In this document: piece by piece, positions 34,542-40,766 of the stretch
Position numbering within the stretch: the first letter of the stretch is position 1
How the letters are laid out: every line of letters begins with the position of its first letter
Source of the DNA: Candidatus Saccharimonadota bacterium
Lineage (GTDB): Bacteria > Patescibacteriota > Saccharimonadia > Saccharimonadales > AQU-01
Length of the DNA stretch: 52,031 bases
Reading direction: 5' to 3'
NCBI GenBank assembly: GCA_018499905.2
Contig: JAHBAU020000040.1
Location: forward strand, 1-52,031
The notes under the pieces: model-generated
Databases searched by the model: none
Told to the model about the DNA's origin: nothing
What the model saw: only the letters and a program-made list of their open reading frames with translations
Translations under genes and position numbers: made by a program

Positions 34542-34648
34542 GGAGGGATTCGACCTTTTGCTTCGCAAAACCGCACGCTTCGACCAAGGTCGAATCTAGC
34601 GGCTTCGGGCGGCTGAGCCCACAGGGCTCACCGTTCGAATCCCTCGCC
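34542..34648 (-). repeat. tRNA-Ser-linked structured element E1
   Basis: GAGGGATTCGA...TCGAATCCCTC outer arms with internal hairpins; near-identical inverted copy at 40661-40766. Confidence 0.85.
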
Positions 34649-34660
34649 TAATCCGAACAC

Positions 34661-34692
34661 AATAAAAGGACCCTAGGTAGGGTCCTTTTATT
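34661..34692. terminator. perfect-palindrome bidirectional terminator
   Basis: AATAAAAGGACCCTA-GG-TAGGGTCCTTTTATT directly after tRNA-Ser(CGA). Confidence 0.85.
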
Positions 34693-34693
34693 A

Positions 34694-34783
34694 TGGCGGA
34701 GAGGGAGGGATTCGAACCCTCGGAACCGTTGCCGGCTCACTTGTTTTCGAGACAAGCCAGTTCAACCACTCCTGCACCTCTCC
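34694..34783 (-). tRNA. tRNA-Ser(CGA), CCA encoded
   Basis: GGAGAGG...CTTGTCTCGAAAACAAG...variable arm...GGGTTCGAATCCC...CCTCTCCGCCA. Confidence 0.95.
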
Positions 34784-34918
34784 ACATAAGAAACTATTTT
34801 AACAGATTAGCCGCTCTAAGATTTATTCACCGCTAAAGATGAACGTAATATGAGTAATCTCTGACGATCAAATAAGTTATGTACCCAGCCAAAGGGTGTC
34901 ACGTATAGTGTCTTTTAA

Positions 34919-36064
34919 GTGGGCAGACTAGATTTAAACATTGATATTGCCGGAAGCTTCGAACAATACCGAGCTTTGATGGACGACCCCGGAACTCGAT
35001 CCCTCAGTATGGAGTTCGAGGGTTTAGGTTATGATGACTTCGCGAAAGCCGTTGGTGATGAACGCACTGCCGTCGTGAACGTGCCTTCGTATCCTGAAAC
35101 CTATATACCACTCGCCATCCCGATTGAACATTTACCTTGGTATAACCAGCCGTATTTTGAACAGTTTATTTCGCCAGGAGGAGCAGTCTATTATTACAAT
35201 AACCAACCGCCGCTCTTAGACGAACAACCGGAAGCTTATATGAGTGCTATGGCTCCGGTCACTGAACAAGTGCGGCAAACGGGGGGCCTACTCACGACCG
35301 ACCATTCACATCTGGACAAACCAGTCTTGGATCGTGATATAGCCTATCTTGCTGCGGCAGCGAATATGAAACCCAAGGATGTGGTCGCGCAGGCAAACCC
35401 ACCGGCACAGCATTATATGTATGCACGGCAGCTGCTACACCGCAATCGAATCCCCCCTCGTCACACAGAAATTGATCTATATGAAGAGTACGTTGCCGCT
35501 GGAGAACGAGGCGCTTGGTCAAGTGAGAGAGCGGAGCTGCAACGCGAGATCACTGGCGGGGAAGCCGAACAAATATGGGAGTACTATTATCAAGCTTTTT
35601 CCCAACACAATGCCGTAGATCCTATTTTGGCCAGCTTTACGCACGACCAGTTCGTAGAAATCTTAGACAGCCCCCAGTTTCACAAGTTTGTGTACAGAGA
35701 GAAAGGTGCTGTTGCCAACGTCCTGCTTATAGCCGATATACGTCTGTGTCCATGGATGAACCAAGCCTACTATGAACACCATTACCCCTCGGCCTATCAA
35801 ACAGGAAACATATATTATTCGCCCGGTGTCGTGAGTGACCCTGAAACCAATACTCCCGGGAAAAGCCTCATGACCATGGGGCTGCTTATAAAAACGTTTT
35901 GTCAGGCAGAAATTGAACCGGTCATTACATTTGTTTGTGATGAGGTAAGCAATACACAAGTCCCTAAGCTAACCGAGCACTCCGTCAATCGCACCGGCGT
36001 ACTTACGACTGATCTTAGTCATCCCGATGCCTTGCACGTCATCAGAGGGTTCAGTTTTAAATAG
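34919..36064 (+). CDS. hypothetical protein with two repeated domains
   Basis: LPWYNQPYFEQF / CPWMNQAYYEHH and TGGLLTTDHSHLDKPV / TGVLTTDLSHPDALHV internal repeats; GTG start. Confidence 0.7.
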   Translation: MGRLDLNIDIAGSFEQYRALMDDPGTRSLSMEFEGLGYDDFAKAVGDERTAVVNVPSYPETYIPLAIPIEHLPWYNQPYFEQFISPGGAVYYYNNQPPLLDEQPEAYMSAMAPVTEQVRQTGGLLTTDHSHLDKPVLDRDIAYLAAAANMKPKDVVAQANPPAQHYMYARQLLHRNRIPPRHTEIDLYEEYVAAGERGAWSSERAELQREITGGEAEQIWEYYYQAFSQHNAVDPILASFTHDQFVEILDSPQFHKFVYREKGAVANVLLIADIRLCPWMNQAYYEHHYPSAYQTGNIYYSPGVVSDPETNTPGKSLMTMGLLIKTFCQAEIEPVITFVCDEVSNTQVPKLTEHSVNRTGVLTTDLSHPDALHVIRGFSFK

Positions 36065-36982
36065 TGTTCTTGATACCGGCAGTGTAACAGTATATTTTCG
36101 AAGGAACTTTTCTGGTCGCAAGAATTGCTTCGCAGCTCTCAAGCCTGGTATTCCAAGATCTTGTTCGAAGTTCAAAAGCTCATGGCCCAGCTGTTGCAGT
36201 TCGCGTGCCACGCAATTAAGTAAGTAATGATAGATGCCTCTTAGTCGCGTGTCTGCTTTCCAGAAATGCGCCAAAACAGGGTGCGCATCGTGTAATTCGC
36301 AAATAATAAAAGCACGTAACTTTTTATCCACTCTTATGCCATACGCAACCAAGTCATATGATTCAAAATTATTCAACAGCCTGGTGATTGCATCTTTTTC
36401 ATTTGCCGCATCATTCGTAATCTTAAGGTCTTCTCGATCATGAAAGATGTGTAGAATTTCAACTTTTGTTTGTTCGTTACTCAGATCAAGCTCAATAAAA
36501 CTACTGGTCGGGCCTAGCTCCCGCTTAAATCGATTGACCAGCTCTCTCGTGTGCGCCTGAGGACGACCAACGAGTTGCGCAAGTTTCTGCAACGAAAGAA
36601 TGTAATCATTGTTATCTTGGTCTTCAGTAATGATAAATTGATCTGCTTCCTGAAGTTTCAGTGCAATTTCTTCGGGTATAAGCTTAAGGTTCGGCAAGAA
36701 ACCGGAATGTTTCGCCTGGCCCAACAGGGTTTGGGCCGTATATACCGGGTGTCTGTTGCCAAGAAACGTATAGAAGGTTTCGTTAGTCACATAGTCTCGA
36801 AAGCGCACAACCAGGTTGTCGTACAGCCAAGAAACAGCGATACCGTCGTCATTGTTCCAGCTATGGAGATTTGTAAAATTAAAATCTGAATAGCCAGCAT
36901 GCTGACGCGTAAACGCTTGAACCTCAGGTTTTAAGCCCAAGTCAACATTAACAAATCGAGGAAACCTCGGAATTGCGCTCAT
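35969..36982 (-). CDS. DUF2156/phosphatidylglycerol lysyltransferase C-terminal-like protein
   Basis: FVNVDLGLKPEVQAFTRQHAGYSDFNFTNLHSWN opening typical of DUF2156; GNAT-like LRAFIICELHDAHPVLAHFWKADTRLRGIYHYLLN. Confidence 0.7.
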   Translation of the reverse strand: MSAIPRFPRFVNVDLGLKPEVQAFTRQHAGYSDFNFTNLHSWNNDDGIAVSWLYDNLVVRFRDYVTNETFYTFLGNRHPVYTAQTLLGQAKHSGFLPNLKLIPEEIALKLQEADQFIITEDQDNNDYILSLQKLAQLVGRPQAHTRELVNRFKRELGPTSSFIELDLSNEQTKVEILHIFHDREDLKITNDAANEKDAITRLLNNFESYDLVAYGIRVDKKLRAFIICELHDAHPVLAHFWKADTRLRGIYHYLLNCVARELQQLGHELLNFEQDLGIPGLRAAKQFLRPEKFLRKYTVTLPVSRTLFKTEPSDDVQGIGMTKISRKYAGAIDGVLG

Positions 36983-37189
36983 AACCCACACCCTTTTTTT
37001 GAGACGATTGTCACTTTTAGGTTAGCACTCACCGAATGCTCGATTATGAAAACTTTGTGAATATTTTTATCTCATAAGTGGTGTGTAAAATGGGATTTAT
37101 CATATTTAATGCGTTCGAGCATCGAAAGTATTTCTCTCATATCACATGCATGCTATGGTTAGAGTAAAGGTAACCATAATCGTAATATC

Positions 37190-40156: not shown

Positions 40157-40310
40157 TGTGGGATTCGCCTTGGCCCTAAAGGGCCGTGCGGAAGGGGTGG
40201 GATTCGACCTTTGCGGCAAAAGAAAATTACTTTTGCCAAGCAAACCCCTTACGGGGCTAAAGGGCGGGGAAGCCAAGACTTTGGCTTCCCGTTCGAGTCC
40301 CACCCCAGAC
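40157..40310 (-). repeat. tRNA-Ser-linked structured element E3
   Basis: Outer arms GGGGTGGGACTCGA/TCGAATCCCACCCC; contains 20-nt exact copy (40188-40207) of the tRNA-Ser(TGA) 3' end (40350-40369). Confidence 0.8.
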
Positions 40311-40312
40311 GC

Positions 40313-40348
40313 AAATTAAAAGACTCTCAGTTGAGAGTCTTTTAATTT
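40313..40348. terminator. palindromic bidirectional terminator
   Basis: AAATTAAAAGACTCTCA-GT-TGAGAGTCTTTTAATTT. Confidence 0.85.
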
Positions 40349-40435
40349 GGCGGAAGGGGTGGGATTCGAACCCACGGACCCTCTCAGGTCTCCTGTTTTC
40401 AAGACAGGTGCACTCGACCACTATGCGACCCTTCC
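40348..40435 (-). tRNA. tRNA-Ser(TGA), CCA encoded
   Basis: GGAAGGG...CCTGTCTTGAAAACAGG...GGGTTCGAATCCC...CCTTCCGCCA. Confidence 0.95.
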
Positions 40436-40523
40436 ATAGGACAGGGATATTATAGCAAGTGATTGCCTAAATTTAAGAAGTTATTTTATATTCTGTCATC
40501 TTGTAATACAATACCAGGGTTCA

Positions 40524-40616
40524 GGAGAGGTACCCAAGTGGCTGAAGGGGGCAGTTTGCTAAATTGCTAGTGGGGCGCAAGTTCCAGCGAGGGTTCGAAT
40601 CCCTCCCTCTCCGCCA
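40524..40616 (+). tRNA. tRNA-Ser(GCT), CCA encoded
   Basis: GGAGAGG...GCAGTTTGCTAAATTGC...GGGTTCGAATCCC...CCTCTCCGCCA. Confidence 0.95.
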
Positions 40617-40650
40617 TAATAAATGGGCTCTACCAGGGCCCATTTATTAT
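40616..40650 (+). terminator. palindromic terminator after tRNA-Ser(GCT)
   Basis: ATAATAAATGGGC-tctaccagg-GCCCATTTATTAT. Confidence 0.8.
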
Positions 40651-40660
40651 GCGTGGAGTA

Positions 40661-40766
40661 GGCGAGGGCTTCGAACGGTGAGCCCTGTGGGCTCAGCCGC
40701 CCGAAGCCGCTAGATTCGACCTTTGGTCGAAGCGTGCGGTTTTGCGATGCAAAAGGTCGAATCCCT
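40661..40766 (+). repeat. tRNA-Ser-linked structured element E2
   Basis: Near-identical (few mismatches) inverted copy of E1. Confidence 0.85.

Follow-up and report, generated by a model that had tools for sequence, protein, structure and literature searches.

The 52,031-nt stretch of DNA analysed here (hereafter the window) is contig 45 (JAHBAU020000040.1) of the 1.09-Mb draft genome of a Candidatus Saccharimonadota bacterium (GCA_018499905.2), and contains three tRNA-Ser genes, with anticodons CGA, TGA and GCT, each followed in the direction of the tRNA by a palindromic terminator and then by a folded noncoding element, termed E1, E3 and E2, respectively. This layout, and the motifs with which the elements open and close, had been described at these positions in an earlier note on the same DNA and were found as described. 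In what follows, a denotes the 3′ part of a tRNA from the T-loop to CCA, a′ its inverted copy, T the palindrome behind the tRNA and X the core, while R1 and R2 are covariance models of two element types, A and B. The features, with window tRNAs called by ARAGORN and Rfam RF00005, are as follows:

34694..34783, minus strand: tRNA-Ser (CGA), anchor of E1 (ARAGORN, RF00005)
34661..34692, minus strand: palindromic terminator between tRNA-Ser (CGA) and E1 (from the sequence)
34542-34648, minus strand: E1, full extent
34631..34648, minus strand: inverted T-arm copy (a′) of E1
34556..34630, minus strand: core X of E1, hairpins (from the fold; R1 match to E1 of 41 bits, locus L036)
34542..34555, minus strand: direct tRNA 3′-end copy of E1, GGTCGAATCCCTCC, T-arm part retained and acceptor part lost
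34500..34526, minus strand: probable remnant of an earlier unit beyond E1, a last hairpin and then AAGCCGAATCACCC (from the sequence)
40348..40435, minus strand: tRNA-Ser (TGA), anchor of E3 (ARAGORN, RF00005)
40314..40347, minus strand: near-perfect palindromic terminator of 34 nt between tRNA-Ser (TGA) and E3
40188-40306, minus strand: E3, full extent
40289..40306, minus strand: inverted T-arm/acceptor copy (a′) of E3
40210..40288, minus strand: core X of E3, type A, with hairpins hpA, hpB and hpC (loop TANNTTT) (R1 match of 109.7 bits)
40188..40209, minus strand: direct tRNA 3′-end copy of E3, 20/22, reaching into the acceptor strand
40158..40185, minus strand: probable remnant of a second unit beyond E3, a hairpin with GGCCCTTTAGGGCC AAGGCGAATCCCAC
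40524..40616, plus strand: tRNA-Ser (GCT), anchor of E2 (ARAGORN, RF00005)
40617..40649, plus strand: palindromic terminator between tRNA-Ser (GCT) and E2
40661-40766, plus strand: E2, full extent
40661..40678, plus strand: inverted T-arm copy (a′) of E2
40679..40754, plus strand: core X of E2, identical to E1 (arms included) at 103/105
40755..40766, plus strand: direct copy of E2, T-arm 3′ strand

The near-identity of E1 and E2 beside different tRNAs, to which attention had already been drawn, extends over 103 of 105 aligned positions. The three window elements have fold z-scores of -4.2, -4.2 and -6.7, and no shuffled sequence folded equally well. E1, E2 and E3 may well be gene-less units of a tRNA-anchored, integron-like cassette system.

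Each unit has the order a (within the tRNA), long palindrome T, a′, X and a again. The stem of the palindrome often takes in the CCA of the tRNA (CCA...TGG), and a′ is an inverted copy of the 3′ end in which the T-arm part is preserved and the acceptor part mostly degenerate, with a complete copy at locus L049. In type A, X consists of three hairpins, the last with the loop TANNTTT, and a′ and a close X into a four-way junction with a tRNA-derived P1 stem; in type B, X lies inside the T-loop of a direct copy of the T-stem and again has three hairpins. Both types were modelled and give four-way-junction folds, and at least two additional cores occur, C (CACGCGCAGGAGTTTNCTCCGAGCATG...) and a short D (GACGCTTCGCTCGTGACTACATAAATGTCC...GGACATTTATG). 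Units of this anatomy might arise in naturally competent cells without any dedicated system, as by-products of template switching or homologous recombination at tRNA palindromes, their arms being kept complementary by quasipalindrome correction; the run of the terminator palindrome into the tRNA CCA (CCA...TGG), the position of a′ at the mirror-copy spacing of the tRNA 3′ end (perfect in L049) and the lack of a dedicated enzyme would suit this origin. It leaves unexplained the conserved three-hairpin X, the loop motif and the presence of at least two independent core types of the same geometry, and is considered very unlikely.

The type C core (CACGCGCAGGAGTTTNCTCCGAGCATGCCGCAGCGGATAAAGGACG) was met behind tRNA-Asn, Met, Val, Phe and Leu (L138, L142, L127 and L156; genomes G042 and G011). 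The type D core, followed by tRNA 3′-end copies, stands at tRNA-Thr CGT, Pro CGG and Arg CCT of the source genome (L018, L019 and L039); at tRNA-Arg CCT it occurs in tandem, and one copy bears the 3′ end of another tRNA, miscalled as tRNA-Ala by ARAGORN. Rfam searches of the window and 14 loci covering types A-D, in gathering and E-value modes, matched tRNAs alone. Sub-threshold matches to microRNAs and plastid untranslated regions were taken as chance.

The region downstream of every tRNA in the source genome was inspected. Copies of the final 22 nt of the respective tRNA, matching at 18 or more positions, lie downstream of Lys-CTT, Met, Arg-TCT, Gly-TCC, Pro-GGG, Pro-CGG, Thr-CGT, Leu-CAA, Leu-TAG, Ala-GGC, Gln-TTG, Glu-CTC, Glu-TTC, Arg-CCT and Asp-GTC, besides E3. 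In all, about 15 tRNA genes other than the three tRNA-Ser genes carry units, with 3′-end copies that are often 20-22/22 identical through CCA; Leu-TAA and Lys-TTT have units with weaker copies. The earlier restriction of the elements to tRNA-Ser or class II tRNAs therefore does not hold, since within this one genome the same layout is found at tRNAs for Arg, Gly, Glu, Ala, Asp, Lys, Leu, Gln, His and others, and linkage to tRNA-Ser as such is not supported; a fourth tRNA-Ser (GGA, L038) lacks an element. No unit lies downstream of this tRNA-Ser GGA or of the tRNA-Arg GCG of the window; the latter (44584-44660, plus strand) is followed by a palindromic terminator and then GG, and represents an unoccupied tRNA within the window.

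The arms of the elements belong to the tRNA at which they stand. A same-strand tRNA lies upstream, within 1.5 kb, of 58 of the 66 distinct type A elements, the other eight being near contig ends or in arrays, and 46 of these 58 start 38-54 nt past the tRNA; among type B elements, 49 of 76 are located 56-97 nt downstream of a tRNA. As had been proposed, the arms track the local T-arm: over the 58 type A elements, the distal 22 nt score 17.5 matches to the own tRNA against 13.2 to other tRNAs (p = 4e-11), and the inverted arm likewise fits its own tRNA better than others (p = 2e-9). The resemblance of the closing arm to a T-arm was correctly noted, but understates the copy, most examples of which continue through the acceptor strand to CCA. 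The distal acceptor and CCA bases of type A elements fit their own tRNA better even when taken alone (p = 2e-9), and many type B loci have 20/20 copies of the 3′ end of their own tRNA. These bases lie outside the stem, and their match to the own tRNA is therefore read as a mark of integration and not of structural selection.

The folds are supported by strong covariation. For type A (68 distinct rows), 94.0% of alignment cells are paired, 30 of 34 pairs show two-sided change and the covariation score is 0.486, against at most 0.085 with slid partners; the corresponding values for type B (76 distinct rows) are 97.1%, 31 of 38 pairs, and 0.476 against at most 0.091, and since the alignments were fitted to the structure the pairing in both is inflated, although the margin is still very large. 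Decayed tRNA pseudogenes were rejected in view of this excess of covariation, and ordinary repetitive extragenic palindromic (REP) sequences and T-box-like regulators were considered and rejected. Selection at the level of RNA tolerates G.U pairs and does not tolerate A.C mismatches. The tRNA stems of the same loci follow this rule, with 5.5% G.U and 0.3% A.C (174 to 8, or 22:1), whereas the type A stems have 2.5% G.T and 2.2% A.C (51 to 45; Fisher p = 4e-17 against the tRNA stems), and hairpins 1 and 2 of type B have 0.9% and 0.6% (18 to 13; p = 1e-7). The comparison is conservative because model fitting would favour G.U. With a G.T to A.C ratio of about 1:1 and a terminator between tRNA and element, a DNA-level fold is favoured, and on the pattern of mismatches the element fold seems to be selected as DNA.

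The same data bear on a functional RNA, which would either regulate or process the neighbouring tRNA or act in trans as a small RNA with tRNA-derived arms. Very strong structural covariation, the conserved TANNTTT loop of hpC, the conserved G.T pairs of type B hairpin 3 and the wide spread within the order are what such an RNA would be expected to display. Nearly all stems, in contrast, have a G.T to A.C ratio near 1, where tRNAs have 22:1; a strong terminator stands between tRNA and element; acceptor and CCA bases are duplicated though they lie outside the stem; and the elements are patchy, even between congeners, and not in Rfam. A functional RNA is accordingly rated as quite unlikely, and the processed small RNA, one of the options left open in the earlier note, is disfavoured as a first guess, the stems shunning G.U wobble in the manner of DNA and the terminator separating tRNA from element.

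Both models find matches in the order, which named GTDB hits identify as Saccharibacteria. R1 matches 35 of 295 genomes in 29 of 143 genera, and R2 matches 94 of the 295 in 67 of the 143 genera, with up to 13 scored copies per genome; R2-positive genomes include the single-contig G036 and the 600-kb G007. Among 380 genomes drawn from the phylum, six are matched by R1; three of these six fall outside the order and have copies linked to tRNAs. A type A pattern run over 84,980 GTDB species hit 13 places, all in Saccharibacteria/Saccharimonadia where the record is named below ‘bacterium’. Pattern scans of the viral contigs of IMG/VR gave four coding chance matches and otherwise nothing, and hence no sign of a viral source. 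The elements are undescribed in the open-licence literature searched, though a description elsewhere is possible. The central proposal of the earlier note, an undescribed family of structured, noncoding, tRNA-linked repeats with covarying arms, is thus upheld: the elements are in many relatives, show compensatory changes and are not in Rfam, so that none of the outcomes named as evidence against it (absence from relatives, lack of covariation, a known Rfam family) was observed.

Different tRNAs of one genome have X cores in common. For 19 of 65 X cores the closest relative is found in the genome of origin, against a mean of 4.1 and a maximum of 14 over 1000 shuffles, and in 18 of these 19 same-genome pairs the nearest X is not at the same annotated tRNA, some copies being in arrays with no tRNA on the fragment. 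In G011, the X cores at tRNA-Arg and tRNA-Lys share 96% identity, and the distal arm at tRNA-Arg is a hybrid, with a Lys-like T-arm and an Arg-like acceptor end. The congeners G011 and G042 differ in occupancy at Arg-TCT, Ser-CGA, Asn, Leu-CAG, Val-TAC and Phe, each of which is occupied in only one of the two genomes. Among the origins previously left open, mobility is favoured, given that X cores are common to different tRNAs of one genome and that units stack and enclose genes.

Such stacks are found at several tRNAs. At L086, a 240-amino-acid open reading frame (ORF) and X follow tRNA-Glu, and the unit ends with CGATTCCCCCTGAGGTCACCA, which reproduces the tRNA end exactly. L087 comprises tRNA-Lys, a B unit, a RibD_C/DHFR-like gene with an A unit, and a further B unit, each unit being closed by a copy of CGAGTCCCACCGGACCCTCCA, one of them with one mismatch. 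L093 joins tRNA-Gln to an Imm5-like gene, L079 joins tRNA-Tyr to an ORF of unknown kind, and contig C21 of the source genome (L084) has A units with a dCMP/MafB19-like deaminase and a GDSL lipase. In these five loci the genes run in one direction and are delimited by folded sites; L068 has reversed ORFs. At L257, two B units, both with 20/20 copies, lie 2.6 kb apart behind tRNA-Lys and enclose a LexA-like gene (named by inspection only), and L263 has exact tandem units. As a separate observation, the Nextera adaptor sequence AGATGTGTATAAGAGACAG opens contig C21 (L084 1-19), and several contigs end in or near units.

Mirror arrangements also exist. About 12 of the 76 type B elements lie immediately upstream of an intact tRNA and are preceded by the 5′ part of a tRNA of the same kind (local alignment 22-63 against shuffled maxima of 11-15, in most cases); after X come a 3′ fragment and then a promoter-like stretch. 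Here X is found within the T-loop (Ser-GGA, Leu-CAG, Glu-TTC, Val-TAC), within the anticodon loop (Gln-CTG, L241) or beside the D-stem (Pro-TGG, L260, L248). These placements indicate that X marks joins at the tips of tRNA hairpins, with a new 3′ or a new 5′ part supplied. In three families (L264, L272 and L261), an intact tRNA-Ser (GGA) is immediately preceded by a broken and clearly different tRNA-Ser whose T-loop holds a type B X, an arrangement that looks as if an old tRNA-Ser gene had been replaced. At L238, L241, L260 and L265, the interrupted loop recurs in inverted form (for example CTTGAACC, CCAGAACC) within the promoter-like stretch of the intact tRNA, where a -35 box would stand.

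Sharing of cores among different tRNAs with arms that are local, the placement of X in the T-loop, in the anticodon loop or next to the D-stem, and the hybrid distal arm of the G011 tRNA-Arg element could also be produced by X alone, as a non-autonomous mobile element of the miniature inverted-repeat transposable element (MITE) or REP kind that targets hairpins, jumps into tRNA hairpin tips and copies the target arms, any enclosed genes being incidental. The long duplications, of tRNA 3′ end and terminator or of 5′ part and promoter, would be atypical as target duplications; neither the source genome nor G007, with its at least 13 type B elements, has a Y1 transposase; and no X apart from tRNA sequence was noticed, although no systematic search for such an X was made. 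This alternative is regarded as unlikely, though less so than a functional RNA.

A partner enzyme was sought by domain, and none of the four families examined tracks the presence of the elements. PF00589 is represented by one protein in the source genome and in nearly every relative, and the copies inspected (that of the source genome, adjoining ndk, and that of G072) are Xer-like. Serine recombinases (PF00239) are absent from the element-bearing G072, G031, G067, G075 and G007. Y1 transposases (PF01797) are present in 13 of 30 genomes, without relation to the elements, and absent from the source genome and G007; reverse transcriptase (PF00078, RVT_1) is present in 3 of 24 genomes and absent from the source genome, G007, G072 and G079, so that nothing suggests affiliation with retroelements such as group II introns or retrons. 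G007, with at least 13 type B copies, thus has no serine recombinase, Y1 transposase or reverse transcriptase. From these searches, Xer, an unrecognised protein or general recombination is left to do the joining, and Xer is the sole candidate recombinase common to element-rich genomes. The A unit of tRNA-Lys in G042 is separated from this tRNA by a 7-kb element that contains a large serine recombinase. Large serine recombinase genes run into tRNA-Lys at that site (L076 1417-8384) and into tRNA-Met (L208, contig C7 of the source genome near 53.9-55.5 kb), their C-termini being read from the tRNA antisense strand (GGPGGTRTLDILLKRQTL, AGPGLEPGTSWL), and several of the ten such genes of G011 adjoin tRNAs. 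The units join at the T-loop, whereas the core shared at L076 is just CCTCCA and lies at the acceptor end; large serine recombinases are therefore not taken as the motor.

Integrons hold one-direction arrays of mostly small genes whose boundaries are imperfect palindromes folding from a single DNA strand, and the stems of their attC sites count for more than the sequence of those stems (PMC3053210). The present system resembles them in all these respects, and differs in that units are anchored at a tRNA gene instead of attI, with many anchors per genome and most units gene-less, and in that the site arms, GGGATTCGAAC/GTCGAATCCC, are those of the tRNA T-arm, change with the tRNA and surround a conserved multi-hairpin core. 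IntI was not found among the PF00589 proteins inspected, nor was an attC R box (GTTRRRY/RYYYAAC) with extrahelical bases, no GTTRRRY being seen by inspection. As in islands integrated at tRNA 3′ ends, a direct repeat of the tRNA 3′ end stands at both ends of the unit, which restores the tRNA 3′ end while the displaced copy marks the far end; unlike islands, the units have no integrase, measure about 180 bp, contain a folded core and occupy many different tRNAs of one genome. The rtT repeats of Escherichia coli tyrT follow a tRNA and finish with a copy of its 3′ end, at a single locus; the present elements have a three-hairpin core and many loci, and give no match to Rfam RtT. REP/RAYT and IS200/IS605 likewise consist of short palindromic DNA, recognised as a single strand in those systems, but the present elements are tied to tRNAs and not scattered between genes, and the source genome and G007 lack Y1. 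In CTX-type phage, attP is used as a folded single strand by host Xer; the likeness is Xer, the only recombinase common to the present genomes, and the difference is the tRNA arm as target. No dif-like sequence was noticed in the elements, in which no systematic test for one was made. With no IntI or R boxes, no integrase, no Y1 and no Rfam entry, the elements are therefore rated as a new type whose working resembles that of an integron, set apart from integrons, tRNA islands, REP/IS200 and Rfam families.

On balance, we lean towards a tRNA-anchored, integron-like cassette system of Saccharibacteria with folded recombination sites. The site would be a tRNA hairpin stem, usually the T-arm, capped by the conserved three-hairpin X and acting as folded DNA. 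A unit would join the intact tRNA arm at its loop, as a folded attC joins attI in an integron, bringing a new tRNA 3′ end and terminator or, in the mirror form, a new promoter and 5′ part, and the displaced old tRNA part would stay behind, joined to X. Repeated joining would give arrays of the form tRNA-(unit)n, some with genes between the copies. Units would presumably move by site-specific recombination of a folded strand, carried out by the resident Xer or an unrecognised enzyme. Several observations weigh against this system. No dedicated recombinase was found, the two PF00589 proteins inspected being Xer, and no excised circle or junction read was seen. The flanks of G011 and G042 are too diverged for a base-exact empty site, and one sought for the tRNA-Glu cassette in G086, G031 and G079 was not obtained, the flank not being found. 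Hairpin 3 of type B has 12.5% G.T pairs, as expected of RNA, and the majority of units are gene-less. The genomes are mostly drafts, and single-contig genomes such as G036 have the same layout.

Saccharibacteria are ultra-small episymbionts in which gene acquisition is poorly understood. A broader interpretation, put forward tentatively, is that the cassette system represents an unknown class of DNA recombination typical of this phylum, in which tRNA hairpin arms could serve as docking sites and folded tRNA-arm-plus-X structures as cassette sites, run by a single resident Xer or an unrecognised recombinase and giving dozens of small integron-like platforms per genome. If the cassette reading is true, the tRNA genes of a large bacterial group would be many small platforms for gene capture, with recombination sites built on borrowed tRNA arms; integrons would no longer be the only kind of folded-DNA cassette system, and odd tRNA-side repeats would be accounted for. 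For annotation, broken tRNA copies and CCA-ending repeats in Saccharibacteria genomes call for caution, as they belong to these units. Even without mobility, a covarying DNA-level fold that, counting type B alone, is present in 94 or more of 295 genomes and belongs to no known family calls for explanation, and if the units do move, they would offer ready-made genetic entry points into Saccharibacteria.

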